Shown here one piece after another: positions 340 to 51,645 of a DNA stretch of 53,567 nt. This DNA is from an uncultured Bacteroidales bacterium (GTDB lineage Bacteria; Bacteroidota; Bacteroidia; Bacteroidales; Paludibacteraceae): positions 1-53,567 of the forward strand of contig CADBYS010000019.1 in the NCBI GenBank assembly GCA_902798965.1, given 5' to 3'. Numbering within the stretch: the first letter of the stretch is position 1; every line of letters begins with the position of its first letter. The notes below the pieces were generated by a model. That model was given only the letters and a program-made list of their open reading frames with translations, ran no database searches and had not been told where the DNA came from. Both the position numbers and the translations under genes were made by a program.

Positions 340-692
340 CCTGTATGTAATGTGCGCTTTGCAATAAGATGCACGTTGTGCGATGTTTACATTGCAAGAA
401 TAGTGAAAAGTAACGATTTTTGTGTTATAAAGCATATTTTGGCACACGAATTGACATATATTAGGTGAAAGCGCAAGCTTAGGAGGACACAAAAATGTTG
501 AAAATTGCAAAAATGACATCAATCGATCAATCGGTACAATAAAACAATCAATCCGGCAATCGTAAATATGTCAATCGTCAATCACTCGACATCCGGTGTG
601 TTCTCAGCGGCGCAGAGTACAAATTAAAACCAACAGTATTTATTAACTTAGAACAAGGGAAGATAAACCCTTGAAAAAAAAACCTACCAACA
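340..692 (+). other. Long leader or gap with a possible micro-ORF
   Basis: No conventional gene is visible. A strong AGGAGG (481-486) precedes an ATG at 495 that opens a 15-codon frame (MLKIAKMTSIDQSVQ) ending at 542; such a strong Shine-Dalgarno is unusual in this phylum. A TCAATCG-type short repeat follows (519-592). A small hairpin, CAAGGG (654-659) with CCCTTG (668-673), lies 20 bases before the next start codon. Whether this is a leader of the gene at 693 or a separate transcript cannot be told from sequence. Confidence 0.4.
519..592 (+). repeat. TCAATCG short tandem repeat
   Basis: Degenerate 7-base units built on GTCAATC/TCAATCG are interspersed with AT-rich units. The string CAATCGTAAATA is shared with the array at 46247-46312, so the two loci belong to one family. 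Confidence 0.6.
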
Positions 693-1079
693 ATGAAAAA
701 GATCTTTGTAACAGTAACACTTTTCGTAGCTCTGGCACAGGTTGCCAACGCTGCACGTCTTAACCAAGACAACTTAACTGCCGACAAGGCAACAGTAACG
801 AACATTGAAACAGTGAACAACGCCTCAACGGAAGCATCTACGACGCACGACAAGTTCCGTACGTACGCCATGCAGAGCGAGGAGAACGACAAGCATATAT
901 TGCGGTTCTACGACATCAACCGCATCGTAGTAAAGAACACGAACCACGCGGTAATACGCATCTACGATGACAAGTGGCGTCTGCTGGAACAAACAAGCGA
1001 AGACGTAGATAAGCGCGTAAACGAAGGCAACTACTACGTAACGAGCACCAGCCGTATCCGCGGAAGCTACCAGAAGTAA
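693..1079 (+). CDS. Small secreted protein of unknown function
   Basis: A 128-residue protein with a clear signal peptide (MKKIFVTVTLFVALAQVANA, cleavage after residue 20). The mature part is polar: a Thr/Asn-rich stretch to about residue 50, then a compact C-terminal segment containing VIRIYDDKWRLLE and NYYVTSTSRIRG. No catalytic motif or lipobox is present. It resembles small periplasmic Bacteroidales proteins of the DUF3836 kind, but I do not claim membership. It stands alone between a long leader and a strong terminator at 1161, so it is probably monocistronic. Confidence 0.6.
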   Translation: MKKIFVTVTLFVALAQVANAARLNQDNLTADKATVTNIETVNNASTEASTTHDKFRTYAMQSEENDKHILRFYDINRIVVKNTNHAVIRIYDDKWRLLEQTSEDVDKRVNEGNYYVTSTSRIRGSYQK

Positions 1080-1160
1080 GCGTTGAACACAAAATGCCAA
1101 AGGCCAAAAGCCGATGGCATCTTACAAAGAAAGGTTAGTAAAGTATTTAGTTTAATAGTC

Positions 1161-1197
1161 GGGTGACGCACCAAGAGGGTGTGTCACCCTTTTTTTT
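1161..1197 (+). terminator. Strong intrinsic terminator
   Basis: GGGTGACGCACC (1161-1172), loop AAGA, then GGGTGTGTCACCC (1177-1189), followed by eight T. This is the clearest terminator in the window and closes the gene at 693-1079. Confidence 0.9.
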
Positions 1198-1228
1198 GAC
1201 ACGTTTGTGTAACAAAGCGCAAGAATTA

Positions 1229-1260
1229 TTTGCAAATGTCAATTTTTTTTCGTATCTTTG
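1229..1260 (+). promoter_or_regulatory. Promoter of the Fe-S factor / lpxH operon
   Basis: TTTG at 1229-1232 and TATCTTTG at 1253-1260 with 20 bases between. Expected transcription start is near 1267, about 42 bases before the ATG at 1309. The short leader can fold GCCGTTTTG (1263-1271) against CAAAATGGC (1285-1293) with one G-U pair. Confidence 0.85.
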
Positions 1261-2465: not shown

Positions 2466-3275
2466 ATGCATAGTAGAGCAGAACAGTTAGCAGCGTTTGA
2501 CAGGCTGCTGACAATCATGGATGAACTGCGGGAGAAATGTCCGTGGGATCACAAGCAGACCTTCGACAGTCTGCGCGAGAATACGATAGAAGAGGCATTC
2601 GAGTTGGCGGCAGCCATCTCGAAACATGATATGACGGAGATCAGCAAGGAACTGGGCGATGTGCTGCTGCATGTAATCTTCTATGCCAAGATGGGCAGCG
2701 AGACAAATGATTTCGATATCGCCGATGTCTGCAACCGCATAAGCGACAAACTTATCTTCCGCCATCCGCATGTGTATGGCCAGCAAGCCGCACAAAACGC
2801 CGAGGAGGTAAGCAAACTCTGGGAACAAGTCAAACTGAAAGAGAAGGGTGGCAACAAGACCGTCTTGGGCGGAATACCCGACTCACTGCCCTCGCTCGTC
2901 AAGGCATATCGCATACAGGATAAGGTGGCTAACGTCGGCTTTGACTGGGAAAAGAAAGAAGATGTGTGGGCAAAAGTGCACGAGGAACTCGATGAGCTGC
3001 AAGCTGAATTAGTCGAAAGTCAAAAGTCGAATGTCGAAAGCCCGAGTGAAGGGATGATTGCGGAGTTCGGAGACTTGTTGTTTGCTATGATCAATGCCGC
3101 ACGGCTGTACAAGATTCGCCCGGATAATGCCCTGGAGCAGACCAACCTCAAGTTCATACGCAGATTCAACTACGTAGAGGCGAAGGCGAAAGAGCAGGGT
3201 CGCGAACTCAAGGACATGACTCTCGACGAGATGGAAGCCTTGTGGCAGGAAGCCAAAAAAACGGATCATTGCTGA
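2466..3275 (+). CDS. mazG: Nucleoside triphosphate pyrophosphohydrolase MazG
   Basis: A 269-residue MazG with two MazG-type helical domains. The N-terminal half has the typical CPWDHKQTFDSLRENTIEEAFE block and EELGD-like metal ligands (KELGDVLLHV); the C-terminal half has AEFGDLLFAMINAARLY and NLKFIRRF. The enzyme removes two phosphates from (d)NTPs and is a housecleaning enzyme. Between the halves, residues 183-192 are encoded by a GTCGAAA-type heptamer array (3012-3040), the same unit that fills several gaps here; this linker is longer than usual. The last codons overlap the terminator hairpin of the minus-strand tRNA gene. Confidence 0.92.
   Translation: MHSRAEQLAAFDRLLTIMDELREKCPWDHKQTFDSLRENTIEEAFELAAAISKHDMTEISKELGDVLLHVIFYAKMGSETNDFDIADVCNRISDKLIFRHPHVYGQQAAQNAEEVSKLWEQVKLKEKGGNKTVLGGIPDSLPSLVKAYRIQDKVANVGFDWEKKEDVWAKVHEELDELQAELVESQKSNVESPSEGMIAEFGDLLFAMINAARLYKIRPDNALEQTNLKFIRRFNYVEAKAKEQGRELKDMTLDEMEALWQEAKKTDHC
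3012..3040 (+). repeat. GTCGAAA heptamers inside mazG
   Basis: Four 7-base units (GTCGAAA, GTCAAAA, GTCGAAT, GTCGAAA) lie inside the mazG reading frame without breaking it. They encode the polar linker VESQKSNVES. Confidence 0.85.
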
Positions 3276-4663: not shown

Positions 4664-4702
4664 GGTGAATGGGCTAATGGCGAATGGTTAATGGCCAAAG
4701 GC
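4664..4702 (+). repeat. GGNNAAT heptamer array between two convergent genes
   Basis: Units GGTGAAT, GGCTAAT, GGCGAAT, GGTTAAT and GGCCAAA, one offset by a base, run from one base after the peptidase stop to the folE stop. The same unit type occurs inside the glycosyltransferase (45506-45547, 46004-46046). Confidence 0.85.
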
Positions 4703-5293
4703 TTACTGCTTGTTAATCACCAGATTCAGAAACTCCTGTCGCGTCTCTTTGCGGTTGAATGCGCCCGTGAAATCCGAAGTCACGGTCAGCGAGTGTTGTT
4801 TCTGCACGCCGCGCATCTGCATGCACAGGTGTTCGGCTTCAATCACCACCATCACTCCCAGCGGGTCGAGTGTGCGCTGTATGCACTCCTTGATCTCCGT
4901 CGTCAGACGTTCCTGTACCTGCAATCGGCGGGCAAATACATCCACCACGCGGGCGATCTTGCTCAGTCCCGTTATGCGGCCGTTGGGGATATATGCCACG
5001 TGTGCCTTGCCAAAGAACGGCAACATATGGTGCTCGCACAGCGAATAGAACTCGATATCCTTCACCACTACCATCTGCCGGTAATCCTCCTCGAACAATG
5101 CCGAACGAAGTATGGCTTCGGGGTCTTCCTTGTAACCTTTGGTCAGGAACTGCAGCGACTTGCCCACGCGGTGCGGGGTACGTTGCAGACCTTCGCGTTC
5201 GGGGTTCTCGCCCAATGCACGAAGCACGGAATCCATGTTCGCGGAAATAGCGTCAGTAACGGCCTGTGAGGGGTTGAATGCTTGTAAATCCAT
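4703..5293 (-). CDS. folE: GTP cyclohydrolase I
   Basis: A 196-residue FolE. It converts GTP to 7,8-dihydroneopterin triphosphate, the entry to folate (and possibly queuosine precursor) synthesis. Zinc ligands are visible in [21 protein letters not shown] and HLCMQMRGV; the substrate-binding segment [23 protein letters not shown] is intact. Length is normal for the family. It is the last gene of the minus-strand run that starts with feoB and begins six bases after the SPOR gene, so it is likely co-transcribed with it. Confidence 0.95.
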
Positions 5294-5836: not shown

Positions 5837-5904
5837 AGTCATAACCATAATCATAGCGGCTACAGAATAGCCGTTACATTATCACCACAAAAATCGTGCC
5901 ATAC

Positions 5905-5932
5905 TGGTTGCTGAATGCTGATAGCTGATTAC
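5905..5932 (-). repeat. TGANNNC heptamers abutting the receptor stop codon
   Basis: Four exact 7-base units (plus-strand TGGTTGC, TGAATGC, TGATAGC, TGATTAC) end directly against the TonB-receptor stop (5933-5935). The same family precedes ung and the M49 gene and lies inside rnr and the PPTase gene. Confidence 0.85.
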
Positions 5933-8542
5933 TCAATCCTCCTCCGGCCTGTCCAGTGCCCAGCGGAAGCCTACGTAGATCTTCCAACCCATCGTCGGTG
6001 CCCAAACCATCGAGGCATCGAAGGGCAGCGAGTAGTCCATGATTACCTTTCCCTGTGCGTCGTACGTGCCGGCAATAGGATGCTCTTGCTTGAAGTTCGT
6101 CATGTTTTCCGCGCCCACGTACAGCGAGCAGGTCTTCCAATACTTCGTGATTTGTGCCAGCAGCTGCGGGTACCACTTGTGGTAGATGTTGCCGTCGCGC
6201 GTGAAATATTGTCCGTCGGCTGTCAGTCGCGGGTAGTTCATGTTCCCGCCGGGCAGCTGGTAGTAGTCAGCCACCGCGCCGTCGGGCATTCGCCCGTAGC
6301 CGTTGAACTGTGCCGTGACATCGAACTGCCACTTCTTGAGCGGCGTCTGGTAACTCATCGTAATCAAGCCCTTGAACTTGTTCTGCAGGGCTTTCTCGCG
6401 TAGTTCGTAGCCGCCTGTGGTTGTGTTGAAGGAGGTCTGCCGTACATCGTTGTAGCGGAAAGCTGCCGTCACTGTCCAGCCGCGCAGCACCTCCATCGTG
6501 GCTTCGATCTGCGCCGTGTGGCTGAATGAACGTCCACCGGGCATATCGGTTAGGTTGAAATACTCAATCGTCCCGGTTGAGGCATCGAGGTCAACAAGCA
6601 AGCCGTCCATGAACGTCGTGTAGTAATATTCGGCGCTCAGTTGCAGGTTACGTTTGCCGACAGGTATATCGAACACTGTTGTCACGCCCGCATTGAAACT
6701 GCGTTCCTGGTGCGGGGTGTTTTGTATGCCGTAGTCTGCGTACCAGTTGCGCGTGGATAGTAGCAGCGGTGAGGAATAGTCGGAAATCACGTTCGGCGAA
6801 CGGTAACCAAGACCCATACTGCCGCGCAGTGTCCACCACTCGAACGGCGCATAGCGCACGTTCATGCGAGGCGTGACAAAGAAACCGTAACGCGTTGAGT
6901 AATCCCCACGCAAACCTGCTATCAGTTGCAGCATTTCGCCGTACGTAAAGGTATATTCGGCAAACGCACCGGGTGTCACCTCCCACCGGTCAAGAACGAG
7001 CGGATTGGTATTTACTTTCGACCCCACGGGCAGAATGATGCCTTTGCCCGCTAATGATTCCCAATATTGGTCGTAGTTCACCGACAGACCTGCGGAGAGC
7101 TTGTGGCTCACGTCGTGTCCCACTTGTACGCCGTGATGCTCGTGATGATGCTCGCCTTGATCCCAGGTGTTCTCGAAGATGGCATTCAGGTATCCGTTAG
7201 CCTGCGAGGCTTTCCAGGCTGTGCTGCCGTAGTGGTTCATCTGGTCGTGGTACGATCCGGCGGCGATGATGCCGAGCGACATGCCTGACTCCTCGTCAAA
7301 CACAATGCCGTTTTTCATCACACCTTCCACGCGGTCGGTACGCAGGTCGATCAGGTAGGGATTGGCGGGCATCTTCATGCCCATCTTCTGCGACATATAG
7401 TTCTCGCGTTGCCCGCCGTGACGCTCGTCGTGCAAGCCGCGAACAAAGCACATGAACGTATAGGCATCGTTCTTGTAGCGCCAGCGGTTCAGGATGTTCA
7501 GGATGCGGTCGCGAGGCATATCCAGCACACCGTCGCGGTTGCCGTCCATCGCCCAAGCACCTTCGTGGTAATGGGCGAGCACACTCGTAGATAAGGTGCC
7601 AAGCATCGGGTCGTCGGGGATAGGTATATCCCAGCCGCCGGTCAGGTTCAGCTCGGCATGCAGCTCGGTGTTCACCATCGCATTCACGGCTATGGGACTT
7701 TGTGTATGCGGCTTGAGGTATTCCACGTTGATCTGACCCGTGATGGCCTCGTAGCCGTTGATCACCGACGATGTGCCTTTGCTGATCTGCACGGCATCCA
7801 TCCACGAACCCGGGATGTACTCCAATCCAAAGGATTGTGCCAAGCCGCGCACCGCGGGGGTATTCTCGGTGAGCAGTTGTACGTACGTGCCGCTCAAGCC
7901 CAGCAGACGGATCTGCTTCGCTCCGGTCGCTGCATCGGCAAAGGATACGTCCACCGAAGCGGTCGTCTCAAAACTCTCGCTCAGGTTGCAGCAAGCTGCG
8001 CGGCACAATTCTGCCTGCCCGAAACTCTCCGTATCGAACGCCGAGAATCGTGACTTGATCACTGACTGTTTCTTGGCTTCCACGGTCACCTCGTCCAGCA
8101 GTTCGTTGTCGGGGAGGAGTACGATGGTCATCGGTTTGCGGTCGCGAACGCGCAGCGTATCGTTGCGGTAACCTAAGTACGAGGTGATGAGCAGTTTCGT
8201 TTGCCGTATAGGCTCTATCTCGAACATTCCTTCCGCGTCGGTTGTCGTACCTACAGTCGTCTCAGCCCACCACACATTGGCACCTACCAGCGGTTCGCCC
8301 TTGTCATCCACCACTATGCCATGCAGGTGTGCACTCATAGGCAGCGTGAGCAACATAAGGTACAGCACTACAGCCGCCTTCTTGCAGTTGGCAGCCAACG
8401 AGCAACCGGCGCAACCCGCTGCGCGCTTTGCGCTGCAGTCCGTGCCGCACGCGCACTCTGCACGCCGCTGCCGCCGAATAATCAGCCACATACCTATCGT
8501 GGCACCTATCACAATCAATATCGTTATAATCTTCTGTATCAT
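5933..8542 (-). CDS. TonB-dependent metal receptor fused to a FeoB-associated Cys-rich peptide
   Basis: An 869-residue protein in two parts. Residues 1-55 have one membrane helix (4-22), basic RRQRR, then Cys 30, 32, 36, 44, 47 and 53, which is the layout of the FeoB-associated Cys-rich membrane protein. From residue 56 a second hydrophobic segment (AAVVLYLMLLTLPMSA) looks like the receptor's original signal peptide, followed by a carboxypeptidase-regulatory-like domain (about 73-145), a plug with a Cys cluster (ELCRAACCNLSESF, 177-190) and a 22-strand-type barrel. An extracellular loop near 461-472 is His-rich (HHHEHHGVQVGH). It should import a metal or metal chelate across the outer membrane. 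Its ATG overlaps the feoB stop by four bases. The fusion could be real or a lost stop codon. Confidence 0.85.
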   Translation of the reverse strand: MIQKIITILIVIGATIGMWLIIRRQRRAECACGTDCSAKRAAGCAGCSLAANCKKAAVVLYLMLLTLPMSAHLHGIVVDDKGEPLVGANVWWAETTVGTTTDAEGMFEIEPIRQTKLLITSYLGYRNDTLRVRDRKPMTIVLLPDNELLDEVTVEAKKQSVIKSRFSAFDTESFGQAELCRAACCNLSESFETTASVDVSFADAATGAKQIRLLGLSGTYVQLLTENTPAVRGLAQSFGLEYIPGSWMDAVQISKGTSSVINGYEAITGQINVEYLKPHTQSPIAVNAMVNTELHAELNLTGGWDIPIPDDPMLGTLSTSVLAHYHEGAWAMDGNRDGVLDMPRDRILNILNRWRYKNDAYTFMCFVRGLHDERHGGQRENYMSQKMGMKMPANPYLIDLRTDRVEGVMKNGIVFDEESGMSLGIIAAGSYHDQMNHYGSTAWKASQANGYLNAIFENTWDQGEHHHEHHGVQVGHDVSHKLSAGLSVNYDQYWESLAGKGIILPVGSKVNTNPLVLDRWEVTPGAFAEYTFTYGEMLQLIAGLRGDYSTRYGFFVTPRMNVRYAPFEWWTLRGSMGLGYRSPNVISDYSSPLLLSTRNWYADYGIQNTPHQERSFNAGVTTVFDIPVGKRNLQLSAEYYYTTFMDGLLVDLDASTGTIEYFNLTDMPGGRSFSHTAQIEATMEVLRGWTVTAAFRYNDVRQTSFNTTTGGYELREKALQNKFKGLITMSYQTPLKKWQFDVTAQFNGYGRMPDGAVADYYQLPGGNMNYPRLTADGQYFTRDGNIYHKWYPQLLAQITKYWKTCSLYVGAENMTNFKQEHPIAGTYDAQGKVIMDYSLPFDASMVWAPTMGWKIYVGFRWALDRPEED

Positions 8543-10203
8543 AAAACTAAATTACAAATAAACGCAGCGAGCCAAGCCACAATCAGCGAGTTAACTACGC
8601 TGAACATCGCCCACCGCCAACCTAATTCCTTGCGCAGCGTGGAAACGGTAGCCACGCAGGGGAAGTACAACAGAATGAACACTAAGAACGCGTACGCCGT
8701 GCCCGCACTCAGCGCCATGCTTGTCAGATCGTAGCCGAAGAGGATAGCGAACGTTGCCGCTATAGCCTCCTTGGCGGGAATACCGGTCATCAGGCACACG
8801 CACATTCGCCAGTCGAAGCCCAGCGGTGCCATCAGCGGCTCCAGCCAATGACCGATAGCAGCCAGCCACGAGTGCTCGATGTCCGCCACACTTTCGGCGG
8901 GGAAGTACTCCAATGCCCAGATAATGATTGAGGCAAATAGCACGACGGTGGTTATCTTTTTTAGGAAATCCTTTACGCGGAACCATACGTGCCCGCTTAT
9001 CGAACGCAGCGAGGGTACTTTGAAGTCCGGCAACTCGTTCACGCAATCATCCTCCGTGGTGCGGAACCACTTCGTTTTCTTTAGAATGAACGCCAACACG
9101 AAACTCAGCAACATACCCAACACGTACAGCGAGGCAAGTATCAGCGCGTGATGACCGGCAAAGAACGTGCTGATCAGTAGGATATATACCGGCAGTCGTG
9201 CCGAGCAGCTCATGAATGGAACCATCAGCATCGTTACGGCGCGGTTCTTGGGGTTGGGTATAGCGTCGCGCGTGGCGATGATGGCCGGTACGTTGCAGTC
9301 AAAACCCATCAGCAGCGGGAAGAAACTTCGTCCGTGCAAGCCCAACAGGTGCATGAAGTGATCCATCAGGTAGTTGATACGCGCGGTGTAGCCTATATCT
9401 TCGATAAGGCTCAGGCAGAAAAACAGAATAATGATGTTCGGCAACGCTGTTACCAGCGATCCTACGCCTTGCACTACGCCGTCAGCCAGCAAGCTGCGCA
9501 GCCATCCGTCGGGCATCTGCCCGATGATAAACTCGTACAACCAGTCCACACCTCCTTGCATCCAGTCCTGTAGCGGCGCGCCAATCGCGAACGTTGCCCA
9601 GAACACCAAGCCCATCACGGCAAAGAAGATCGGGAATCCCGTCCACTTGTTCGTCAGCAGACGGTTGACGCGCTCTTCCAGGGTCTTTGTATCCGCCTCG
9701 GGGTGGATAAGTACCTGCATGAGCAGACCTTCCATATACGCGTGCCAGGCCTCCTCGTCCGTCTGTTCCCAGCCGTGAACGATGAAGCGCTCGCGTGCCT
9801 GCATTCTGGGGTCGATGGCAACACGGCGTATCGTCTGACTCAGCTCCAGCAGTCCCTCACCGGTCACTGTACTTACGGTCATCACGGGCACACCGGTCTG
9901 TTCACGGAACGTCTGCAAGTCCAGCCGGTGCCCTGTTTTGAGCAGCAGGTCGTACCTATTTATGGCGATGACCATCGGGTGCCGGTGCTCCATGAACGAC
10001 GGTGTCATCTGCAAGCACTCCCGCAGCCGCAAGGCATCCACCACTTGCAGCACTACATCTGTCGGGGTAGTCAGCGTATCCATCTGCTCGTGCGACGAAC
10101 ACTCGTCGAACGTCCATCCCGGACGCGCAAGCCGCTCGATGACAGCACTTTTGCCGCTGCCATCCAGCCCCACTACGGTAATATGTAATGCTTCGTTTGC
10201 CAT
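8539..10203 (-). CDS. feoB: Ferrous iron transporter FeoB, short form with degenerate G domain
   Basis: A 554-residue FeoB; family members are usually 700 residues or more. The membrane core is complete: pore motifs GFDCNVPAIIATR, PFMSCSARLPVY and GIPAKEA, with two Gate-like halves. The N-terminal G domain is reduced. G1 reads GLDGSGKS (12-19) instead of GNPNxGKT/S; only about 30 residues separate it from VVLQVVDALRL, so switch I/G2 is missing and the G3 DLPG is reduced to RPGW. G4 is NRYD (82-85). No feoA is seen. It heads the minus-strand iron operon from the promoter at 10286-10316. GTP use is doubtful on this evidence; Fe(II) transport is inferred from the core. Confidence 0.9.
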   Translation of the reverse strand: MANEALHITVVGLDGSGKSAVIERLARPGWTFDECSSHEQMDTLTTPTDVVLQVVDALRLRECLQMTPSFMEHRHPMVIAINRYDLLLKTGHRLDLQTFREQTGVPVMTVSTVTGEGLLELSQTIRRVAIDPRMQARERFIVHGWEQTDEEAWHAYMEGLLMQVLIHPEADTKTLEERVNRLLTNKWTGFPIFFAVMGLVFWATFAIGAPLQDWMQGGVDWLYEFIIGQMPDGWLRSLLADGVVQGVGSLVTALPNIIILFFCLSLIEDIGYTARINYLMDHFMHLLGLHGRSFFPLLMGFDCNVPAIIATRDAIPNPKNRAVTMLMVPFMSCSARLPVYILLISTFFAGHHALILASLYVLGMLLSFVLAFILKKTKWFRTTEDDCVNELPDFKVPSLRSISGHVWFRVKDFLKKITTVVLFASIIIWALEYFPAESVADIEHSWLAAIGHWLEPLMAPLGFDWRMCVCLMTGIPAKEAIAATFAILFGYDLTSMALSAGTAYAFLVFILLYFPCVATVSTLRKELGWRWAMFSVVNSLIVAWLAAFICNLVL

Positions 10204-10273
10204 TGTTTTTTGCTTTCTACTTTCGACTTTTTACTTTCTGCTTTTGACTTTCGACTTTTGACTTTCGACTTTC
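10204..10273 (-). repeat. GAAAGTC heptamer array forming the feoB leader
   Basis: Read on the minus strand, ten consecutive 7-base units (GAAAGTC, AAAAGTC, GAAAGCA, AAAAACA and variants) run in exact phase up to the feoB ATG. They fill nearly the whole leader between the predicted transcription start near 10279 and the start codon. Confidence 0.9.
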
Positions 10274-10285
10274 TCTTACAGACTG

Positions 10286-10538: not shown

Positions 10539-10567
10539 TAGCCTTATCTGAAAAATATCGGTATTTT

Positions 10568-12049: not shown

Positions 12050-12691
12050 GTGTTGGCTGAACGCTTGCATACTGCACGCAGTTTCCTGCGTCATCAACTG
12101 ACTGCATGGAACACGGGTGGGGAAGGAATACATTCGCCCTCGTTGTTCTATCTGGTCAGGATGATCATCTACGACGATAATGCGTATTACGCTTTCGACG
12201 AGATAGAACGGCATCGTGCAGCCTTGCAGCGCAACCATCCCGACGTACGGCAGGTATCGGTGAAGGCCGGTCGCCTGCTGTTTCGGTTGGTGAACTACCT
12301 GAGTCAGACGCAGCAAGAGCCGCTGACAATCGTGGAGACAGGTCATGCACCCGGGATGAGTACATGGTACTTGTCAACACCCACGGAGAGGAATATTGTC
12401 GTGTGTTGCGAGAAGCCTGAGGATGATTGCCCCAAGCGTGTAGATCTGGCTTATGTTGCCGGCGAGCCGACGTGCGAGGCGATGCTACGCGATTGCCGCA
12501 GGTTGTTGCCACGCATGACGAACCATAGTATTTTGGTGATCAGTGGCATCCACCGAACGAAAGAGAGCGAGCAGGTCTGGCAGGCAATACAAGCCGAGAA
12601 ACAGGTGACAAGCACGCTGGATCTGTACAGCGTAGGTATAGTGCTCTTCAACAAGCATTATATCCGCAAACATTACAAACTACGATTCTGA
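12050..12691 (+). CDS. Class I methyltransferase-like protein
   Basis: A 213-residue protein starting at a GTG directly after the previous stop (a TTG follows it). It matches the plan of a Bacteroidetes SAM-dependent methyltransferase group: GGEGIHSPSLFYLVR near the N-terminus, YYAFDEIERHR, AGRLLFRLVNYL, and the C-terminal LDLYSVGIVLFNKHYIRKHYKLRF block. Motif I reads VETGHAPGMSTWYL where E-L-G-T-S-x-G-x-S/T-T is usual, so the acidic and glycine positions are changed and the aspartates of the DD-W catalytic-like segment are lost (VISGIHRTKE). It may be a catalytically weak or inactive member. Substrate unknown. Confidence 0.6.
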   Translation: MLAERLHTARSFLRHQLTAWNTGGEGIHSPSLFYLVRMIIYDDNAYYAFDEIERHRAALQRNHPDVRQVSVKAGRLLFRLVNYLSQTQQEPLTIVETGHAPGMSTWYLSTPTERNIVVCCEKPEDDCPKRVDLAYVAGEPTCEAMLRDCRRLLPRMTNHSILVISGIHRTKESEQVWQAIQAEKQVTSTLDLYSVGIVLFNKHYIRKHYKLRF

Positions 12692-12702
12692 TAACTGATA
12701 GT
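12689..12702 (+). repeat. TGANNNC heptamers starting at a stop codon
   Basis: TGATAAC and TGATAGT; the first unit contains the TGA stop of the preceding gene. The pair ends six bases before the next ATG. Confidence 0.7.
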
Positions 12703-16173: not shown

Positions 16174-16175
16174 TA

Positions 16176-16203
16176 GTCGAAAGTCGAAAGCAAAAAAGAG
16201 AAA
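16176..16203 (+). repeat. GTCGAAA heptamers between porK and porL
   Basis: GTCGAAA twice, then GCAAAAA and AGAGAAA, starting two bases after the porK stop. Confidence 0.7.
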
Positions 16204-20699: not shown

Positions 20700-20701
20700 A
20701 C

Positions 20702-20747
20702 CGTTTCACAGAAAGAGGAAAGATCGTTTCACTGAAAGAGTTAAGAT
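20702..20747 (+). repeat. Tandem 23-bp repeat before the DUF3098 gene
   Basis: Two direct copies (20702-20724 and 20725-20747), each starting CGTTTCAC and ending AAGAT, with four mismatches. They fill the gap between ftsX and the next ATG and each carries a GAAAGAG purine run. Confidence 0.8.
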
Positions 20748-35680: not shown

Positions 35681-35715
35681 CAAATGATAAATGACAAATG
35701 ATTAAATTGTAAATG
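35673..35715 (+). repeat. ATAAATG/ACAAATG heptamers across a stop codon
   Basis: ATAAATG, ACAAATG, ATAAATG, ACAAATG, ATTAAAT, then TGTAAATG. The TGA stop of the permease (35678-35680) spans the first two units; the array ends two bases before the ribBA ATG. Confidence 0.85.
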
Positions 35716-39132: not shown

Positions 39133-40911
39133 TTACGCTCTGCGGAAGGCTATCTGCCTACGCAGTACATCTACACGATCAACCGTCACGCGCACCGCAT
39201 CCCCCAAGGTGAGCCGCTCGCCCGTACGTTCGTTCACCAGGCAGTACTCCTCCTCGCTATACAGCCAGTAGTCTTCGGATTGCTGCTTTTCGGTTGCCAG
39301 ATCCCTCATGTGCAGCAGTCCCTCGCAGTGCGTGTCGGTGAGTTGTACATATACGCCGTACTCCGTAACGCCGGAGATGATACCGTCGAACGTCTCGCCT
39401 ATATGATCGGCCATCCATTCTGCCTGCTTGTACTTGACGGAGGCGCGTTCGGCGGCTACTGCCAGTTGTTCGCGGTCGGAGCAGTGCTGACAAGCCTCTT
39501 CCAGACCGTTAGCCATGGGCTGCTGACCGCTCGCGGCAGGTTGCTTGCTGCCCAGCAGGTACTTGCCCACGAGCCGGTGAACCATCATATCCGGATAGCG
39601 GCGGATGGGGGAGGTGAAATGCGTATAGTAGGGGAAAGCCAGACCGTAGTGCCCGATGTTGTGGGTCGAATATACGGCTTTGGGCATCGTGCGGATGGCC
39701 AAGGTGTGTATCAGTTCCTGCTCCACGCTGCCCGTGCTGTCTGCCAGCAACTGCTTGATGGCTTTTGTGGCGGAGCGTGTGCCGTTCTCGTTTTTCTGAT
39801 CGCGCTTGGGCAGGTGCATCGAGTAGCCGAACTTGTGTACGAACTTGCTTAGGGCATCCACCTTGTCCGGATCAGGCACATCGTGCACACGATATACGGT
39901 CTCTTTGTTCGTGCCCGACAGTTGCATAGCCACCGTGCGGTTAGCCAGCAGCATGAACTCCTCTATCAGGTGATGCGAGGGAGTGGATTGCTGCAATGCG
40001 AATCCTGTAGGTTTGCCCTTGTCGTCTACCAGCACTTTTATCTCATCCCTCTCAAACTCTATCGCTCCGTGGCGGAAGCGCTCCTCGCGCAGTATAGCCG
40101 CCAACCTGTTCAGCTCCACGATAGCTTCGGCAACCTGATTGCTGACTGCTGACTGCTGATTGCCGTCAATGATCTCCTGTGCCTGCTCGTAGTCCAGCCG
40201 TGCGTCCGAGCGGATGATCGTGCGGCAGATCTTGTGCTTGATCACCTTCGCCTTGCTGTCCATCGTAAAGATGACGGACATGGTCAGTTTGTCCTCGTTC
40301 GGCCTGAGCGAACACAGGTTATTGCACAGCCGTTCGGGTAACATAGGTATCGTCCTGTCCACCAGATATACGGACGTCGCGCGGTTGTACGCCTCGTGGT
40401 CGAGCACGCTGCCCGGCTCCACGTAATGTGTCACGTCGGCTATGTGTACGCCTATCTCGTATTGTGCGTTCTCAGCGTTCTCATCTGTCAGCCGCTTGAA
40501 CGACAGGGCGTCGTCAAAATCCTTGGCGTCAGCCGGATCGATGGTGAAGGTGAGCACATCGCGCATATCGCGCCGGCGGTAAATCTCCTGTGTGCTGATG
40601 TCGGCATCTATCTCTTCGGCTTGCTGCACCGCCTCGTCGGGATAGTCGTACGGCAATCCGTACTCGGCAAGTATAGCGTGCATCTCTGTCTCGTTCTCTC
40701 CGCTCTGCCCCAGCACCTCAACCACCTTACCCATCGGCGGACGTTTGCGCGTGGCAGGGTGGATGATCTCCACGATCACCTTGTCGCTATCCTGCGCACC
40801 GTGCAGGTATCGCGGCGCAACGGCAATATTCTCGTTGAACTGTTTGTTGTCCGTCAGCACCTCCGCGCCATAACGCGTGAGGATGAGTGTGCCAAGTATT
40901 CGTTCGTGCAT
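39133..40911 (-). CDS. rnr: RNase R-type exoribonuclease, N-terminally short
   Basis: A 592-residue RNase II/R enzyme; Bacteroidetes RNase R is usually over 700. It begins inside the second cold-shock domain region (HERILGTLILTRYG), so the N-terminal helix-turn-helix and first CSD are absent. The RNB core is intact: FTIDPADAKDFDDALS with the catalytic aspartates, YLVDRTIPMLPERLCNNLCSL, and HFTSPIRRYPDMMVHRL. A C-terminal S1 domain is present (GIISGVTEYGVYVQL). Two low-complexity insertions (NQQSAVSNQ and KQPAASGQQPMANG) come from short repeats. Start choice: ATG at 40911, 20 bases after the manA stop. Confidence 0.9.
   Translation of the reverse strand: MHERILGTLILTRYGAEVLTDNKQFNENIAVAPRYLHGAQDSDKVIVEIIHPATRKRPPMGKVVEVLGQSGENETEMHAILAEYGLPYDYPDEAVQQAEEIDADISTQEIYRRRDMRDVLTFTIDPADAKDFDDALSFKRLTDENAENAQYEIGVHIADVTHYVEPGSVLDHEAYNRATSVYLVDRTIPMLPERLCNNLCSLRPNEDKLTMSVIFTMDSKAKVIKHKICRTIIRSDARLDYEQAQEIIDGNQQSAVSNQVAEAIVELNRLAAILREERFRHGAIEFERDEIKVLVDDKGKPTGFALQQSTPSHHLIEEFMLLANRTVAMQLSGTNKETVYRVHDVPDPDKVDALSKFVHKFGYSMHLPKRDQKNENGTRSATKAIKQLLADSTGSVEQELIHTLAIRTMPKAVYSTHNIGHYGLAFPYYTHFTSPIRRYPDMMVHRLVGKYLLGSKQPAASGQQPMANGLEEACQHCSDREQLAVAAERASVKYKQAEWMADHIGETFDGIISGVTEYGVYVQLTDTHCEGLLHMRDLATEKQQSEDYWLYSEEEYCLVNERTGERLTLGDAVRVTVDRVDVLRRQIAFRRA
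40136..40163 (-). repeat. GCAATCA/GCAGTCA heptamers inside rnr
   Basis: Four exact 7-base units (plus-strand TGATTGC, TGACTGC, TGACTGC, TGATTGC) within the rnr frame, encoding NQQSAVSNQ. Confidence 0.9.
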
Positions 40912-43183: not shown

Positions 43184-43268
43184 TACGCGATTTGGTATGT
43201 GCATATAATTTTAACGTGCGAAGCATGCTTTTCGGGGTATGGTTCGCCACCCAATAATCATAATTGGT

Positions 43269-45010: not shown

Positions 45011-46245
45011 TGCAGTACGTAGTGGACATTCAGATAGTGATTTATGTGCTTCTGGGCGTTTTTGCGGCGGCGTGGTGTTACCAGTTGTACTTCTATCTCA
45101 GGTTTATTCTGGCTGCTGTGCGTCGCACCAAACCGCAGGACGATAACCGCTCGCTGAGCGATGCGCCCGGGGTCAGCGTTATTGTCTGTGCGCGCAACGA
45201 GGAGGCGAACATACGCGATTATCTGCAATCACTCATGACGCAGGATTATCCTACGTATGAGGTGATTGTGGTGAACGACGGCAGTGTGGATCACTCGCGC
45301 GAACTGCTCGAGTACTGGGAGAAACGCTACAGCAATCTGCGGCTCACCTTCGTGCCACAGGGCGCAAAAGTGGGCTCGACCAAGAAGCTGGCTATCACCC
45401 TCGGTGCCAAAGCGGCGCAGTACGACTATCTCTTGCTCACCGACGCCGATTGCCGACCCGAATCCACGCACTGGATTGCCGAAATGATGCAAGGTTTCCT
45501 CGGGCAGCCAATGGCTAACGGCCAACAGCCAACGGCCAACAGCCAGCCGATAGATATAGTCCTCGGTTTCGGGGCGTACTTCTGCAAGCGTTCGCTGCTC
45601 AACCGGCTCATCCAGTTCGATACCTTGTTCGTCGGGCTACAGTACTTGGGCATGGCAGCAAGCGGATATCCGTATATGGGCGTAGGACGTAACCTCGCCT
45701 ACAGCAAGCGGCTATTCTTTGCGCACGGCGGGTTCCGGGGCTTGATGGATCAGCGCGCCGGTGACGACGATCTGCTCGTCAACCGCGAAGCCACCGCGCA
45801 GAACACGGCTGTCGTCTGCACGCCGCAGAGCCTCACATGGTCGGTACCCAAACTGACTTGGAGCGAGTGGTTCAGGCAGAAACGCCGCCATCTGAGCGTC
45901 TCGCACGACTACCGCACCGCTACCAAGTGCCGCCTGTTGCTTGAGCCGCTGACACGAGGGCTGCTCTATGCCGCACTCATAGCCATCATCGTGCTGATTA
46001 ACTGCGAATGGGCGAACGGACAAATGGCGAATGGCTCATGGGCAATCATGTGGCCGGCTGTGGCAGCCATAGCAGCGATGCTCGTACGATGGATAGGGCA
46101 GTGCGTGCTCCTCAACATAGCCGCAAGCCGCTGGGGTACAACCAAAACCATCCTGCTCCTGCCGGTTTGGGAGGTGTTCCTGCCGCTCGTAACGCTAACG
46201 TTGATGCTTATCGAGCCCCTGCGCCCCAAACCCACACGATGGTAA
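45010..46245 (+). CDS. Membrane glycosyltransferase, family 2
   Basis: A 411-residue GT2 from the ATG in TGATG with the previous stop. One N-terminal helix (about 9-34), then a GT-A domain: SVIVCARNEEANI (about 55-67), VIVVNDGSVDHS, LLTDADCRPESTHW (DxD), a GxGRNLAYSK-like acceptor segment and QKRRHLS; two C-terminal helices. The catalytic QxxRW-like motif is present as FRQKRRHL. It should add a sugar to a lipid or polymer at the membrane. Two heptamer insertions encode PMANGQQPTANSQP after residue 165 and EWANGQMANGSW in the loop between the last two helices. Confidence 0.9.
   Translation: MQYVVDIQIVIYVLLGVFAAAWCYQLYFYLRFILAAVRRTKPQDDNRSLSDAPGVSVIVCARNEEANIRDYLQSLMTQDYPTYEVIVVNDGSVDHSRELLEYWEKRYSNLRLTFVPQGAKVGSTKKLAITLGAKAAQYDYLLLTDADCRPESTHWIAEMMQGFLGQPMANGQQPTANSQPIDIVLGFGAYFCKRSLLNRLIQFDTLFVGLQYLGMAASGYPYMGVGRNLAYSKRLFFAHGGFRGLMDQRAGDDDLLVNREATAQNTAVVCTPQSLTWSVPKLTWSEWFRQKRRHLSVSHDYRTATKCRLLLEPLTRGLLYAALIAIIVLINCEWANGQMANGSWAIMWPAVAAIAAMLVRWIGQCVLLNIAASRWGTTKTILLLPVWEVFLPLVTLTLMLIEPLRPKPTRW
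45506..45547 (+). repeat. Heptamers inside the glycosyltransferase (array 1)
   Basis: AGCCAAT, GGCTAAC, GGCCAAC, AGCCAAC, GGCCAAC, AGCCAGC: six units, 42 bases, exactly 14 codons. Confidence 0.9.
46004..46046 (+). repeat. Heptamers inside the glycosyltransferase (array 2)
   Basis: GGNNAAT/GGCGAAC-type units with 7- and 8-base steps, encoding CEWANGQMANGSW. Confidence 0.8.
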
Positions 46246-46246: not shown

Positions 46247-46312
46247 CAGTCAATCAGTAAACAATAGATCAATAAATCGTCAATCGTAAATAATTAAATC
46301 GTCAATAGAATT
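46247..46312 (+). repeat. TCAATCG heptamer array before the DUF3467 gene
   Basis: Degenerate 7-base units from just after the glycosyltransferase stop to the next ATG; same family as 519-592. Confidence 0.75.
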
Positions 46313-46686: not shown

Positions 46687-47562
46687 ATGAAAACATTCCC
46701 TGCAAGTCAGTTGATTATCAATGCCGATGGTTCTGCATTCCATCTGCACCTGAAACCTGAGTTTCTGGCTGACAAGATTATCTTGGTAGGTGACCAAGAC
46801 CGCGTAAACATCGTTGCTTCGTTCTTCGACGAAGGCAGTATAGAGTGCGACGTGCAGTCGCGCGAGTTCCACACCATAACCGGTAAGTTCCACGGCAAAC
46901 GTATCTCGTGTATCTCCACGGGTATCGGTACCGACAACTGCGATATCGTCATGAACGAGATTGACGCACTCGCCAATATCGATTTCAATACCCGCACCGA
47001 GAAAGCCGAGAAACGTGTGCTCGACATCGTGCGCGTAGGTACCAGCGGCGCTATGCAGGAGGATATACCTCTCGGTACGTTCCTCGTTTCGCAGAAGTCA
47101 ATCGGTTTCGACGGTGTGCTGGCGTTCTATCAGGATCGCGACAAAATTGCCGACCTCGGTTTCGAGAAAGCCCTGGTGGAGGCTATCGATTACCCCAAGA
47201 AAGCTGCTGTGCCCTACGTAGTAGCTGCTAACCCCGAACTCGTTGACCGCATCGCCAAGGACGATATGATGCGTGGCTGCACCATCGCTGCCAACGGTTT
47301 CTACGGTCCGCAAGGCCGCGTGCTGCGTGTCGATCTGGCTGTGCCCGATATCAACGAGAAGATCTCTGCGTTCCGCTATCAGGGGCAGCGCATCACCAAC
47401 TACGAGATGGAAGGCTCATGTATCGCCGGCCTCGCGCTGCACATGGGGCACCGAGCTATGACCGTTTGCTGTATCATTGCACAACGTAAGGTGGAAGCCG
47501 CCAACACCGACTATAAACCCCGCGTTAAGCAACTCATCCAAACTGTGCTTGAGCGTATCTGA
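46687..47562 (+). CDS. Nucleoside phosphorylase (uridine phosphorylase-like)
   Basis: A 291-residue PNP/UDP-family phosphorylase. Signature blocks: ILVGDQDRVNIVASFFD (phosphate site), ISTGIGTDNCDIVMNE, VRVGTSGAMQEDIPLG and the ribose-binding NYEMEGSCIAGLALHMG. It cleaves nucleosides with phosphate; the longer N-terminal part fits the Bacteroidetes uridine phosphorylase-like group, so base specificity is not certain. The stop codon starts a TGANNNC array. Confidence 0.88.
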   Translation: MKTFPASQLIINADGSAFHLHLKPEFLADKIILVGDQDRVNIVASFFDEGSIECDVQSREFHTITGKFHGKRISCISTGIGTDNCDIVMNEIDALANIDFNTRTEKAEKRVLDIVRVGTSGAMQEDIPLGTFLVSQKSIGFDGVLAFYQDRDKIADLGFEKALVEAIDYPKKAAVPYVVAANPELVDRIAKDDMMRGCTIAANGFYGPQGRVLRVDLAVPDINEKISAFRYQGQRITNYEMEGSCIAGLALHMGHRAMTVCCIIAQRKVEAANTDYKPRVKQLIQTVLERI

Positions 47563-47587
47563 TAACGGATAGCTGAAAACTGATAGC
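47560..47587 (+). repeat. TGANNNC heptamers between phosphorylase and M49 genes
   Basis: TGATAAC, GGATAGC, TGAAAAC, TGATAGC: four exact units. The first contains the phosphorylase stop TGA and the array ends three bases before the next ATG. Confidence 0.92.
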
Positions 47588-47590
47588 TAC

Positions 47591-49579: not shown

Positions 49580-49582
49580 GTG

Positions 49583-49615
49583 GCTTTCGACTTTCGACTT
49601 TCGACTTTTGACTGT
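49583..49615 (+). repeat. CTTTCGA heptamers forming the aroA start
   Basis: CTTTCGA three times, CTTTTGA, then CTGTCAA. This is the reverse of GTCGAAA. The TTG start of aroA lies inside the fourth unit. Confidence 0.85.
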
Positions 49616-50540
49616 CAAACTTCCGATATCGAAGAGTATTGCCAACCGACTATTGTTGCTACAGGCAATCCATGGAGACCCCCTTTTCGGGGTCTCTGCG
49701 GATATGCCCGACGACATTCGTGTCCTCCACGACGCCCTCGCGCGCCTACGCGAACATAAGAAAGGTGAACCGCTGACGCTTTACCTCAAGAACTGCGGCA
49801 CGGCGTTGCGCTTCCTTGAGGTGCACCTTGAGCGCTGCTACCCGGGCGAACCGATCACCCTCACCGGCGATGCGCGGCTCCTGGAGCGCCGCGGCAAACC
49901 CACCACGCAAACCACCTCCGCGCGCATCCTCCACGGCGATCCCATCCCCATCTCCCCCGACGAGTCGCCCTACATCACCATGTCCCGCCGCATCGCTGCT
50001 ATGTATCAGCCATGCATGGCTGATAGCATCGAGCGTTGTTGGAGTTCCGCCGCTTTCTGGTACGAGTACATAGCCATTCATGGCGGCGAACTATTGCTCG
50101 AGGGCTTAACCGACAGCACCCTGCAAGGCGACCGCCTCATAGCGGATATCTATGCCAAATACTTCGGCGTCACCACCCAATTCACCGCCGAAGGCGCAAT
50201 CATAAAGCGAAGCAGTCTTTTAGCGCAGCGGTCTTTTAGCGCAGCGGTCTCTCTTGATTTCGAGCGAACACCGGATTTATATCCCGCTGTTGCGCTGACC
50301 TGCGAGCGTCTGGGCATCACACTTCATGCTACAGGTACGGAGCGCCTTGCGTATAAGGAGAGCAACCGCCTCGAGGCGGTGCGTTTGCACCAAACGCGCC
50401 ACGACCACCGGATGGCGATGGCGCTGCTTGCTGCCGACTTCCCCGTGGATGACACCGATTGCATCGCCAAGAGTTACCCGACTTTCCTCAGTCAGCTGGC
50501 AGCCTTGCGCAGAGGCGATGCCAATGTAGCAGCTTTGTAA
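49608..50540 (+). CDS. aroA: EPSP synthase, compact form
   Basis: A 310-residue EPSP synthase; the family is usually 400-430. Conserved: KLPISKSIANRLLLL (K9, S10, R14), NCGTALRFL, LTGDARLLERRGKP, WSSAAFWYEYIA, the C-terminal-half block TPDLYPAVALTCERLGI, YKESNRLEAV and DHRMAMA. Missing: the first residues (the TTG start lies inside a heptamer array), the S-S-Q substrate block, and about 50 residues before DHRMAMA. A 48-base insertion of 16-bp units encodes RSSLLAQRSFSAAV. A palindrome at 50005 lies where the S-S-Q block would be. It may be active but reduced. Confidence 0.8.
   Translation: MTVKLPISKSIANRLLLLQAIHGDPLFGVSADMPDDIRVLHDALARLREHKKGEPLTLYLKNCGTALRFLEVHLERCYPGEPITLTGDARLLERRGKPTTQTTSARILHGDPIPISPDESPYITMSRRIAAMYQPCMADSIERCWSSAAFWYEYIAIHGGELLLEGLTDSTLQGDRLIADIYAKYFGVTTQFTAEGAIIKRSSLLAQRSFSAAVSLDFERTPDLYPAVALTCERLGITLHATGTERLAYKESNRLEAVRLHQTRHDHRMAMALLAADFPVDDTDCIAKSYPTFLSQLAALRRGDANVAAL
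50005..50024. repeat. 20-bp perfect palindrome inside aroA, copy 3
   Basis: ATCAGCCATGCATGGCTGAT, ten-base arms without a spacer, in the aroA reading frame (YQPCMAD). Confidence 0.8.
50206..50253 (+). repeat. 16-bp tandem repeat inside aroA
   Basis: AGCGAAGCAGTCTTTT, AGCGCAGCGGTCTTTT, AGCGCAGCGGTCTCTC: 48 bases, 16 codons. Confidence 0.9.
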
Positions 50541-50574
50541 CACACTAATCTTTTTGCTCAAATATCGAATAACA

Positions 50575-51645
50575 ATGAACAGTTTCGGTGACCATTGGGT
50601 TTATACGTCGTTTGGCGAGTCGCACTCGGCAGCCATCGGCGGCGTGCTGGATGGCGTTCCCGCAGGGATGCGTATCGACTTCGCCATGATCCGCGACGCC
50701 CTCAACCGCCGCGCAGGGCGCTTATCAACAGCGCAGCTCACTAACAGCGTAGCTCACCAACAGCGTAGCTCATTAACAGCGCAGCTCACTAACAGCGCAG
50801 CGGTCTCCCCTCGTGCAGTGCGCGAGGCAGACGAAGTCGAATGGCTCAGCGGCGTCATTGGCGCTAATGGCGAGGCAGCCAAGGACTGCAGCGAACTGAT
50901 TACGCTTGGAACACCTATCGCTTTCCTTATCCGCAACCGCGATGCCCGTCCCGAGGATTACGAGGCACTCAAGCACTCGTTCCGTCAAGGTCACGCCGAC
51001 TTCACCTATCAGGCCAAGTACGGCGTACGCGACTACCGCGGCGGTGGCAGAGCCTCGGCGCGAGAGACAGCAGCGCGTGTCGTGGCGGGAAACATTGCCG
51101 CGCAGCACTTGGCGCAGCAAGGCATCCATATCCAAGCCCGACTCATCCGGGTAGGCGACGAGACGCGCCCCGAGCATTTCGACGAACTCATCGCTCGCTA
51201 CCGTGCCGAGGGCGACAGTATAGGCGGTATCATCGCGTGCGAAGTCACGGGACTGCCCATTGGTCTCGGCGAACCGATCTTCGACAAGCTCCAAGCCCAC
51301 CTGGCTTTCGCCATCCTCAGCATCAATGCCTGCAAGGGGTTCGATTACGGTAGCGGCTTTGAGGGCGTCAGCCAACCCGGCTCTGTTGCCAACCAACATA
51401 GCGGCGGTCTGCTCGGCGGCATCACCGACGGCACACCCCTCACCTTCCGCTGCGTCTTCAAGCCCACACCCACTACCCCCAAATCCCTGGCGCAACTGCA
51501 AAAGGAGCAATTAAATGCCCAAATGGAAAATGCCCAAATGGCAAATGGCAAAATAGTAAATAGAAGTGACACCTGCATAGCCGTCCGTGCCGTTCCCGTC
51601 GTCGAAGCCATGACCGCCCTCGTCCTGGCGGATTTTGTGATGTGA
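50575..51645 (+). CDS. aroC: Chorismate synthase
   Basis: 356 residues from the ATG; a TTG seven codons upstream is less likely. Conserved blocks: SFGDHWVYTSFGESHSAAIGGVLDGVPAG, EADEVEWLSGV, HADFTYQAKYGVRDYRGGGRASARETAARV and VRAVPVVEAM. It converts EPSP to chorismate with reduced FMN. A 16-bp repeat (50727-50806) adds residues between RRAGR and READEVEW, and an AATGGC-type repeat (51513-51563) replaces the segment before DTCIAVRAVP. It follows aroA by 34 bases, so two consecutive shikimate steps are paired. Confidence 0.93.
   Translation: MNSFGDHWVYTSFGESHSAAIGGVLDGVPAGMRIDFAMIRDALNRRAGRLSTAQLTNSVAHQQRSSLTAQLTNSAAVSPRAVREADEVEWLSGVIGANGEAAKDCSELITLGTPIAFLIRNRDARPEDYEALKHSFRQGHADFTYQAKYGVRDYRGGGRASARETAARVVAGNIAAQHLAQQGIHIQARLIRVGDETRPEHFDELIARYRAEGDSIGGIIACEVTGLPIGLGEPIFDKLQAHLAFAILSINACKGFDYGSGFEGVSQPGSVANQHSGGLLGGITDGTPLTFRCVFKPTPTTPKSLAQLQKEQLNAQMENAQMANGKIVNRSDTCIAVRAVPVVEAMTALVLADFVM
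50727..50806 (+). repeat. 16-bp tandem repeat inside aroC
   Basis: Five 16-base units of the form AACAGCGYAGCTCAYY, the last ending CGGTCT. It shares AGCGCAGCGGTCTC with the aroA array. Confidence 0.92.
51513..51563 (+). repeat. AAATGGC/AAATGCCC repeat inside aroC
   Basis: Units of 7 and 8 bases (AAATGCCC, AAATGGA, AAATGCCC, AAATGGC, AAATGGC, AAAATAG, TAAATAG), encoding NAQMENAQMANGKIVN. Confidence 0.8.

Follow-up and report, generated by a model that had tools for sequence, protein, structure and literature searches.

Tandem repeats of degenerate 7-bp units (heptamers), known as short tandemly repeated repetitive (STRR) sequences, are dispersed through the genomes of the cyanobacteria Calothrix and Nostoc. 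Similar arrays occur in a 53,567-bp stretch of DNA (contig CADBYS010000019.1 of GenBank assembly GCA_902798965.1; this whole stretch is called the window below) from an uncultured gut bacterium of the order Bacteroidales, family Paludibacteraceae. They lie both between and inside its genes, and we propose, at a probability of roughly 0.5, that they are the arms, often solitary, of very small mobile cassettes resembling the intervening sequences (IVS) of 23S rRNA. The initial annotation of the window had named the cyanobacterial heptamers as the nearest parallel, and this comparison holds. STRR heptamers are described as mainly intergenic; here 39 of 102 arrays were in genes and 63 were not.

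The further remark in that annotation, that no such arrays were known to be described for Bacteroidales, needs a qualifier, since TAACTGA repeats have been reported from Beggiatoaceae, Cyanobacteria and five Bacteroidetes, one of which, Paludibacter propionicigenes, has two sets (MacGregor 2015; PMC4679880). Those repeats are similar in forming sets of 2-6 heptamers by start and stop codons, some in genes and in more than one phylum, but they consist of one unit, as against many families here, and the passages describing them report no link to S23 genes. The GGGAATC heptamers of Xanthomonas are likewise dispersed, with four units commonest and neighbouring genes mostly in the same direction; they are however 89-93% intergenic and read as G-quadruplexes, whereas the AGTCGAA unit treated below is without G-runs (PMC4692102). 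Borg tandem repeats are in genes in 43-65% of cases and often encode disordered repeat peptides, but their in-gene units are divisible by three, whereas here 7-bp units are in frame through the total array length (PMC9879509). Passages in two of these reports treat the origin of heptamer repeats in bacteria as unsettled (PMC4679880, PMC4692102).

Intervening sequences of 23S rRNA are excised by RNase III. The element is about 0.43 kb long; its ends are complementary, and the loop between them contains a four-helix-bundle gene (PMC4990558). In Coxiella the S23p gene of the IVS lies within a 28-bp inverted stem and is directly preceded by tandem heptamers, whose number varies between strains; S23p proteins are said in the same source to have no known function (PMC4990558). 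The family to which they belong, PF05635, is similar to Avd, a protein of diversity-generating retroelements (PMC10053308). A literature search returned no general link of heptamer arrays to S23 genes, the account of the Coxiella IVS (PMC4990558) placing heptamers in one element. Linking the two gives both a testable context, in which the protein belongs to a mobile cassette whose arms are the repeats, and a mobile gene bracketed by arrays suggests an origin for heptamer repeats.

Reality and spread of the arrays

The window corresponds to contig C19 of a draft genome (G000; 2.85 Mb in 51 contigs, assembly about 90% complete). Other genomes of the same genus are denoted G007, G173 etc., and locus stretches by L numbers. 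By RNase R, the nearest relatives among the named loci returned were Paludibacteraceae bacterium RGIG3560 (goat rumen) and RUG12873, both metagenome-assembled genomes, with 78 and 79% protein identity.

Period-7 stretches were called by local lag-7 matching with an 18-of-21 rule, and block or mononucleotide shuffles served as controls. Seven stretches were found in the window and none in 20 block shuffles. In 453,567 bp of G000 there were 46 stretches of period 7, 34 of period 14 and 15 of period 21, against none in three shuffles, with 8, 11, 16, 22 and 33 as minor periods. The genome-wide system of mainly 7-bp arrays, and the enrichment of period 7 over shuffled sequence, that the initial annotation had anticipated were thus confirmed as observations. 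Tandem Repeats Finder (TRF) reported arrays at most of the places named there, and at nine of the eleven gaps it had listed the lag-7 matching was reached by at most 10 of 500 mononucleotide shuffles. The remaining two fared differently: the array in the gap at 28381 has period 8 (GGAGTAAA; lag-7 matching equalled by 393/500 shuffles), and the gap at 46247 is marginal (28/500).

A two-unit GTCGAAA pattern, GTCGAAAGTCGAAA, had 182 matches in the 2.85-Mb genome and none for the reversed control. Of the 41 genomes searched, G000 among them, 14 contained it, all from this genus; none of 16 genomes from other families did. A 15-base version of the doublet was found in 101 of 178 genus genomes, the reversed control giving one or two matches in a few. 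Per 100 kb, G000 had 10.1 period-7 stretches, small samples from the rest of the genus had between 0 and 20, and a set of 78 loci from outer relatives had 1.8.

With 51 contigs, and as short repeats can mislead assembly, the arrays might be artefacts of metagenome-assembled genomes. We regard the chance of this as practically negligible, given that the AGTCRAA arrays of G000 span only 16-48 bp, that arrays in genes stay in frame, that some recur at orthologous sites of separate assemblies, and that the cassette pattern described below is also present in cyanobacterial plasmid records described as complete.

Module size, orientation and protein loops

The lengths of AGTCRAA arrays were counted for those with at least two strict units (n = 60). 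Thirty-one measured 30 bp, corresponding to (AGTCRAA)4AG, with five at 44 bp, two at 16, one at 23 and none at 37. They started with AGTC in 43 cases and finished with AAAG in 56. The 30-bp class comprised 15 of the 34 gap arrays and 16 of the 26 gene arrays, and since both settings show this peak the reading frame cannot be its cause. AGTCGAA arrays do not look like products of free slippage.

Changes between close species were followed in an alignment of G173 and G007, which comprised six blocks of about 50 kb in total; the three largest blocks of the 95% class (38.5 kb) had 94.8-95.6% identity and the others 85-94%. Differences of at least 5 bp included array changes of 7, 21 and 49 bp, and swaps of an array for another array or for a hairpin element. 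Two arrays common to both genomes (30 and 51 bp) exhibited substitutions only. The simple sequence repeats of phase variation change rapidly in copy number and so alter the reading frame or promoter spacing; between G007 and G173 there are some 7-bp differences, but the two shared arrays have the same length. The hairpin elements, CCCCTTCC...AAAGGGG or CCCCRC...GGGGACYCCG, sit at the codons where the sister species has arrays (G007/G173, e.g. L167 1495 versus L150).

Heptamer slippage alone would let a 7-nt bias of the polymerase grow arrays from chance seeds, with four-helix-bundle genes merely sharing the gaps that tolerate them; the idea is credited to Mrazek et al. (2007) in PMC4679880 and PMC4692102. 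It agrees with the prevalence of period 7 across many unrelated units, with the 7-, 21- and 49-bp differences between G007 and G173, and with the longest arrays, of 85 bp in G173 and 72 bp in G007. We nevertheless consider it rather unlikely: the 30-bp peak with fixed ends exists in gaps free of frame selection while 23 and 37 bp are nearly empty, one unit recurs at 182 doublet matches, the shared 30- and 51-bp arrays kept their length, and slippage makes no inverted arms, which 11 of the 12 PF05635 genes with arrays on both sides possess (see below).

Genes and gaps were compared in the window plus 34 stretches of G000 (733,567 bp), for which a simple gene caller gave 600 genes with 87% coverage. 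This sample held the 102 arrays mentioned above, and the same unit families occurred between and inside genes, as the initial annotation had stated. The in-gene share depended on the family (AAAAGAC 0/9, AAAGTCG 21/42, AATCAGC 6/6). AGTCRAA arrays in genes were sense in 23 cases and antisense in 2, as against 10 and 11 in co-directional gaps (Fisher p 0.001). With a balanced orientation in gaps and a sense bias in genes, insertion looks orientation-neutral and selection appears to filter the copies in genes. The sense peptide of AGTCRAA is VESRKSK whichever frame is read.

The position of the arrays in co-directional gaps was also uneven, with 30 of 42 beginning at most 30 bp past the upstream stop codon (median 3 bp) and 18 of 42 ending at most 30 bp before the next start. 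Such positions would suit sites that act close to start codons in translational or post-transcriptional regulation, the role that MacGregor proposed for TAACTGA. This is highly improbable as an explanation of the arrays, 39 of the 102 being inside genes. Moreover, co-directional gaps were not over-represented (42/60 gap arrays versus 327/401 gaps), orientation in them was 10 to 11, and arrays turned over between close species. Convergent gaps held 12 of 60 gap arrays and made up 42 of 401 gaps.

In genes, the arrays were compared with orthologs where these were available. RNase R of the window, aligned to 11 distinct relatives of the same genus and 5 outer relatives, exceeds most of them at three loops; the period-7 rule detected an array at the second loop alone (40135..40165, minus strand; AATCAGC family, encoding GNQQSAVSNQ). 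Following DYEQAQEIID this loop reads NQQSAVSNQ in the window, GQQPTANSQQPIANSQ in L022 and FSQLSTFNSQL in L112, and it is HG-type and repeat-free in 8 of the 11 same-genus relatives. An AlphaFold2 model (mean predicted local distance difference test score 80.5) placed inserts 1 and 2 in loops (residues 140-148 and 248-256), the second between helices; the third, from about residue 453, begins in a loop but within a low-confidence stretch. In mazG a 30-bp (AGTCRAA)4AG module (3011..3040, plus strand) encodes VESQKSNVES, and VESQKSNVESPS of the window stands opposite an 11-residue gap in L022. Chorismate synthase (aroC) carries a 16-mer array (50727..50801, plus strand; TRF and alignment) encoding a 21-residue insert that is missing in G007 and G173, and in its C-terminal loop an AAATGGC/AAATGCC array (51512..51561, plus strand), where G007 has a related array and G173 a different insert of hairpin type.

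The reading of the arrays as insertions therefore stood for MazG, RNase R and aroC, but not for PPTase, where a TCAGCAG array (38718..38757, plus strand; GQQSAVSSQQAA) brings no length gain, a loop about as long occupying its place in L022. The arrays were in frame in these four genes and in a glycosyltransferase (CGGCCAA/CAGCCAA array, 45505..45549, plus strand; MANGQQPTANSQP, TRF). There is a weak 24-bp repeat of 2.2 copies in a variable loop of ribBA (36320..36373, plus strand; TRF), and the thioesterase has only a short variable loop. The 16-mer array in aroA (50206..50250, minus strand; AGACCGCTGCGCTAAA, TRF) is present, and no aroA ortholog was found in the stretches compared. At one place in a gluQ-like gene (the names acrA, acrB and gluQ were assigned by eye) G000 has an array in antisense, G173 one in sense, read as in frame by eye, and G007 hairpin elements. 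A single loop can thus hold different arrays in different species, and conserved enzymes of this genus such as RNase R, MazG and chorismate synthase gain linkers by repeat insertion, with species differing in what the same loops contain.

Arrays flanking PF05635 genes

Genes of PF05635 (S23/IVP, a four-helix bundle) were present in 149 of 178 genus genomes, solo arrays being without such a gene. Searched with a hidden Markov model on both strands, 54 of 56 loci had a hit, and 45 were counted after near-identical copies were dropped; one locus with a short flank was put aside, L228 and L238 were excluded as below the Pfam cut-off, and L233 and L234 were without a frame. A period-7 array lay within 300 bp of 29 of the 45 distinct genes, as compared with 22 of 96 small control genes of G000. 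Arrays on both sides were found at 12 genes, in inverted orientation at 11 of these, versus 4 of 96 controls with arrays on both sides. The arrays were close to the genes (at most 150 bp away at 17/45 on the 5' side and 27/46 on the 3' side), and bins farther out held 0-2 loci, bar one. The exceptional bin, 1050-1200 bp away on the 5' side, had arrays at 7 of 45 loci.

Inverted flank matches of at least 12 nt were found at 21 of 46 PF05635 genes and at 1 of 131 control genes, so that about half of the cassettes could form a stem like that of an IVS, solo arrays being unpaired. An RNA fold of L196 paired the arms around the gene (z -6.1), and that of L017 did so more weakly (z -2.6). In contrast to the 23S IVS the arms are tandem arrays, and most arrays are free of a gene, many of them in protein genes. 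No rRNA family match was obtained in the 60 loci scanned of the 87 identifiers L183-L269, and the elements are therefore IVS-like rather than rRNA IVS. A match to FopS, a small RNA family of Bacteroidetes (RF04319), lies near a four-helix-bundle gene in L191 (608-681, minus strand).

The acrA-acrB gap offers an example. In G173 a four-helix-bundle gene of 120 aa lies there between a long array and another in inverted orientation, and this cassette is absent from G007 and G000. A palindromic AT-rich repeat of TCGAAATA type lies in the same gap of G000 and G007 (L135 about 7630-7685; L152), where other species have the cassette.

Cassette genes were often more alike across species than the genes beside them. 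The cassette gene was 98.3% identical between L187 and L189 (flanking genes 75.8 and 80.8%), 99.4% between L202 and L207 (82.5 and 81.2%) and 98.5% between L197 and L211 (83.0 and 79.8%), and the last four gene groups compared, to which the L197/L211 pair belongs, all pointed in this direction, L201/L206 weakly so (83.6%; flanks 75.0 and 82.7%).

Cassette arms also resembled the solo module. AGTCRAA arms in other species measured 30 bp in 6 of 11 cases and 31 bp in 2 of 11 on the 3' side, and 16 bp in 7 of 13 and 30 bp in 4 of 13 on the 5' side, counted from six gene groups with near-identical copies not collapsed; sizes and ends match those of solo arrays, with some exceptions. In G000 itself, a 16-mer core precedes the PF05635 gene of L216 on the 5' side, with a 3' variant seen by eye, and arms of AATTCAC type, again judged by eye, flank a locus in L017 on both sides. 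The 16-mer core, GACCGCTNCGCT, occurred 23 times in the G000 sample and its reversed control not at all; 12 of the copies lie in gaps and 11 in genes, aroA and aroC among them. The 12-mer core is shared between the aroA array and the 5' side of the L216 gene.

From the shared units, sizes, ends and sites we infer that solo arrays derive from cassettes, and not the reverse. A complete cassette would be about 0.4-0.55 kb long and consist of a tandem-array arm, a PF05635 gene of about 120 codons and, often, an inverted copy of the array as a second arm. Once transcribed, the arms could pair and close off the gene, like the 28-bp stem of the 23S rRNA IVS, and they are probably processed at the RNA level. 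The arms would be built of modules with a preferred size and fixed ends, the common AGTCRAA module being four units plus AG (30 bp), and most arrays of G000 may be such modules minus the gene, i.e. solo arms. Solo arms would insert without regard to orientation. In co-directional gaps most would lie directly after the stop codon, and others would enter protein loops, where selection may keep in-frame and mostly sense copies as hydrophilic linkers (VESRKSK, AVSNQQS). Slippage and homogenisation of units could later change array length and sequence. The interpretation given in the initial annotation was accordingly borne out in part; it had missed the preferred size and fixed ends of AGTCGAA arrays, their neutral orientation in gaps as against the sense bias in genes, and the arrays flanking S23/IVP genes.

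Several observations weigh against the cassette origin. G000 has only three PF05635 hits, one of them below the family cut-off, against 182 GTCGAAA doublets, and since neither of the two good genes has AGTCGAA arms its solo arrays are without a visible master copy. There was no period-7 array within 300 bp of 16 of the 45 genes. Direct flank matches of at least 12 nt were raised as well (8/46 versus 1/131 controls), and direct arms occurred in 1 of the 12 two-sided cases of the genus, in 2 of 3 in other families and also in Pseudanabaena. Seven of the genus cassettes share one acrA-acrB gap and are hence not independent, and the control genes for the array and inverted-match tests all came from G000. 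Two pairs did not conform to the identity pattern of the others, namely L200/L208 (99.4%; flanks 97.6 and 94.6%) and L190/L193 (76%, below flanks of 89.5 and 88.5%). As for the module, 21 of the 60 AGTCRAA arrays had lengths other than 16, 23, 30 or 44 bp, an alternative length rule gave 22 of 50 at 30 bp, other array families of G000 were without a sharp length peak, and the 30-bp peak was weaker in G173 and G007 (3/14 arrays each). Finally, no insertion enzyme was identified.

The order of events might also be the opposite, with arrays dispersed first, four-helix-bundle cassettes homing into them, and inverted arms arising via palindrome-correcting template switches. The gap between acrB and MKSVM, with a solo array in G000 and cassettes in L209 and L214, could be read in this way, as could the array doublets of G000, which far outnumber its PF05635 genes. 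Homing into a tandem array predicts direct flanking arrays, however, not inverted ones, and neighbouring solo arrays of the same family were direct in 48 of 55 pairs; this sequence of events is improbable. The same pairs (7 inverted versus 48 direct) led us to reject the idea that nearby solo arrays are paired inverted ends.

The search for an enzyme centred on two families. RVT_1, the one reverse transcriptase family searched, had hits in 35 of 178 genomes but none in G000, whose assembly is about 90% complete; as a general driver it was rejected for G000, and reverse transcription by this family is thus not needed. Y1_Tnp gave two weak hits in G000, one a 344-aa gene (L001 658-1692, contig C1) resembling REP-associated tyrosine transposases (RAYT; REP, repetitive extragenic palindromic), the other at G000:C16:5684-5836. 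The family was found in 68 of 178 genomes, above the cut-off in 48, and the 2.6-kb surroundings of the RAYT-like gene held just two 12-nt inverted pairs. RAYT-like Y1 transposases are no more than candidates for insertion. Spread of the arrays by a known small-element system, either a reverse transcriptase or a RAYT acting on REP sequences, is most improbable: the RAYT-like gene and the hairpin inserts at the same codons as arrays in G007 and G173 could be taken in its favour, but Y1_Tnp and RVT_1 have the distribution just given, RVT_1 without a hit in G000, and solo arrays, by eye, are without the hairpin form of REP.

Beyond the genus, PF05635 was present in 111 of 149 genomes of the order. 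In other Bacteroidales families inverted matches of at least 12 nt occurred at 56% of 27 loci with full flanks versus 1.3% of 300 cross pairs, and direct matches at 18.5% of the same loci; of three loci with period-7 arrays on both sides, one was inverted and two were direct. Plasmid copies were mostly cyanobacterial (24 of 30 records among the matches listed, the best 30 of 31). Twelve cyanobacterial plasmid loci were examined, of which 7 had inverted matches of at least 12 nt at the S23 genes, up to 27 nt long, versus 3.8% of 132 cross pairs, and a period-7 array was present at 9 of the 12 on the 5' side and at 9 on the 3' side. Neighbouring genes in four wider cyanobacterial regions, chosen from the positives, had inverted matches at 1 of 44. 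It is possible, and we put it forward tentatively, that the scattered heptamers of Bacteroidetes, Cyanobacteria and perhaps other phyla all belong, as arms, to a single widespread class of minimal mobile elements, a four-helix-bundle gene between inverted array arms that moves between species into operon gaps and whose solo arms add protein linkers. In plasmids of Pseudanabaena and Anabaena (L273, L275), four-helix-bundle genes with heptamer arrays lie between cas6 and cas4, and L282 has such a gene, this one lacking a period-7 array, with cas10 on one side and a Cmr3-family gene on the other.

Further arrays and features of the window

The remaining arrays of the window are in gaps. Two consist of AGTCRAA units, namely a 16-bp (AGTCGAA)2AG directly past a stop codon (16175..16190, plus strand) and a 30-bp (AGTCRAA)4AG between the M49 peptidase gene and aroA, antisense to the genes (49584..49613, minus strand), both from the length census. 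A GAATGGC/TAATGGC array follows the M16 peptidase gene (4667..4703; TRF, 0/500 shuffles at lag 7), degenerate CTGATWG heptamers lie beside the gene at 5933-8542 (5904..5938; 0/500 at lag 7), and a short CTGATAA/CTGATAG doublet lies at a stop codon (12688..12701; equalled by 10/500). The divergent gap at 10203..10275 holds two CTTTCGAC/CTTTTGAC arrays, one of them the 33-bp array at 10241 (TRF). An array of CTGATAACTGACNG extends from a stop codon to the next gene (23658..23699; TRF, 3/500 equal), an AAATGAY array separates the LptF/LptG-family gene from ribBA (35673..35705; TRF, 1/500 equal), and a CTGAWAACGGATAG array lies at a stop codon (47559..47588; TRF, 0/500).

The 8-bp array mentioned above is in an operon gap (28380..28408; TRF), as are the marginal TCAATCG/TAAATCG heptamers (46247..46312). 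A TCAATCG-type degenerate heptamer stretch was recognised by inspection in the gap at 519..577, and a 23-bp repeat, by eye like the 16-mer family, in that at 20698..20747 (TRF).

An aroA-like frame (49608-50540, only 310 aa) starts within an array, and its Pfam match spans part of the family. A tRNA-Leu gene is encoded on the minus strand at 3280-3364. Two long frames without a Pfam match (10430-12049 and 37070-38461) contain coding tandem repeats of 21-42 bp. Upstream of genes a dispersed sequence of about 50 bp, TATTTG...TTTTTTTGTAYCTTTGC, recurs at 275-360, 1215-1300, 33560-33645, 43130-43215 and 52875-52960, and presumably resembles the promoters of Bacteroidetes.

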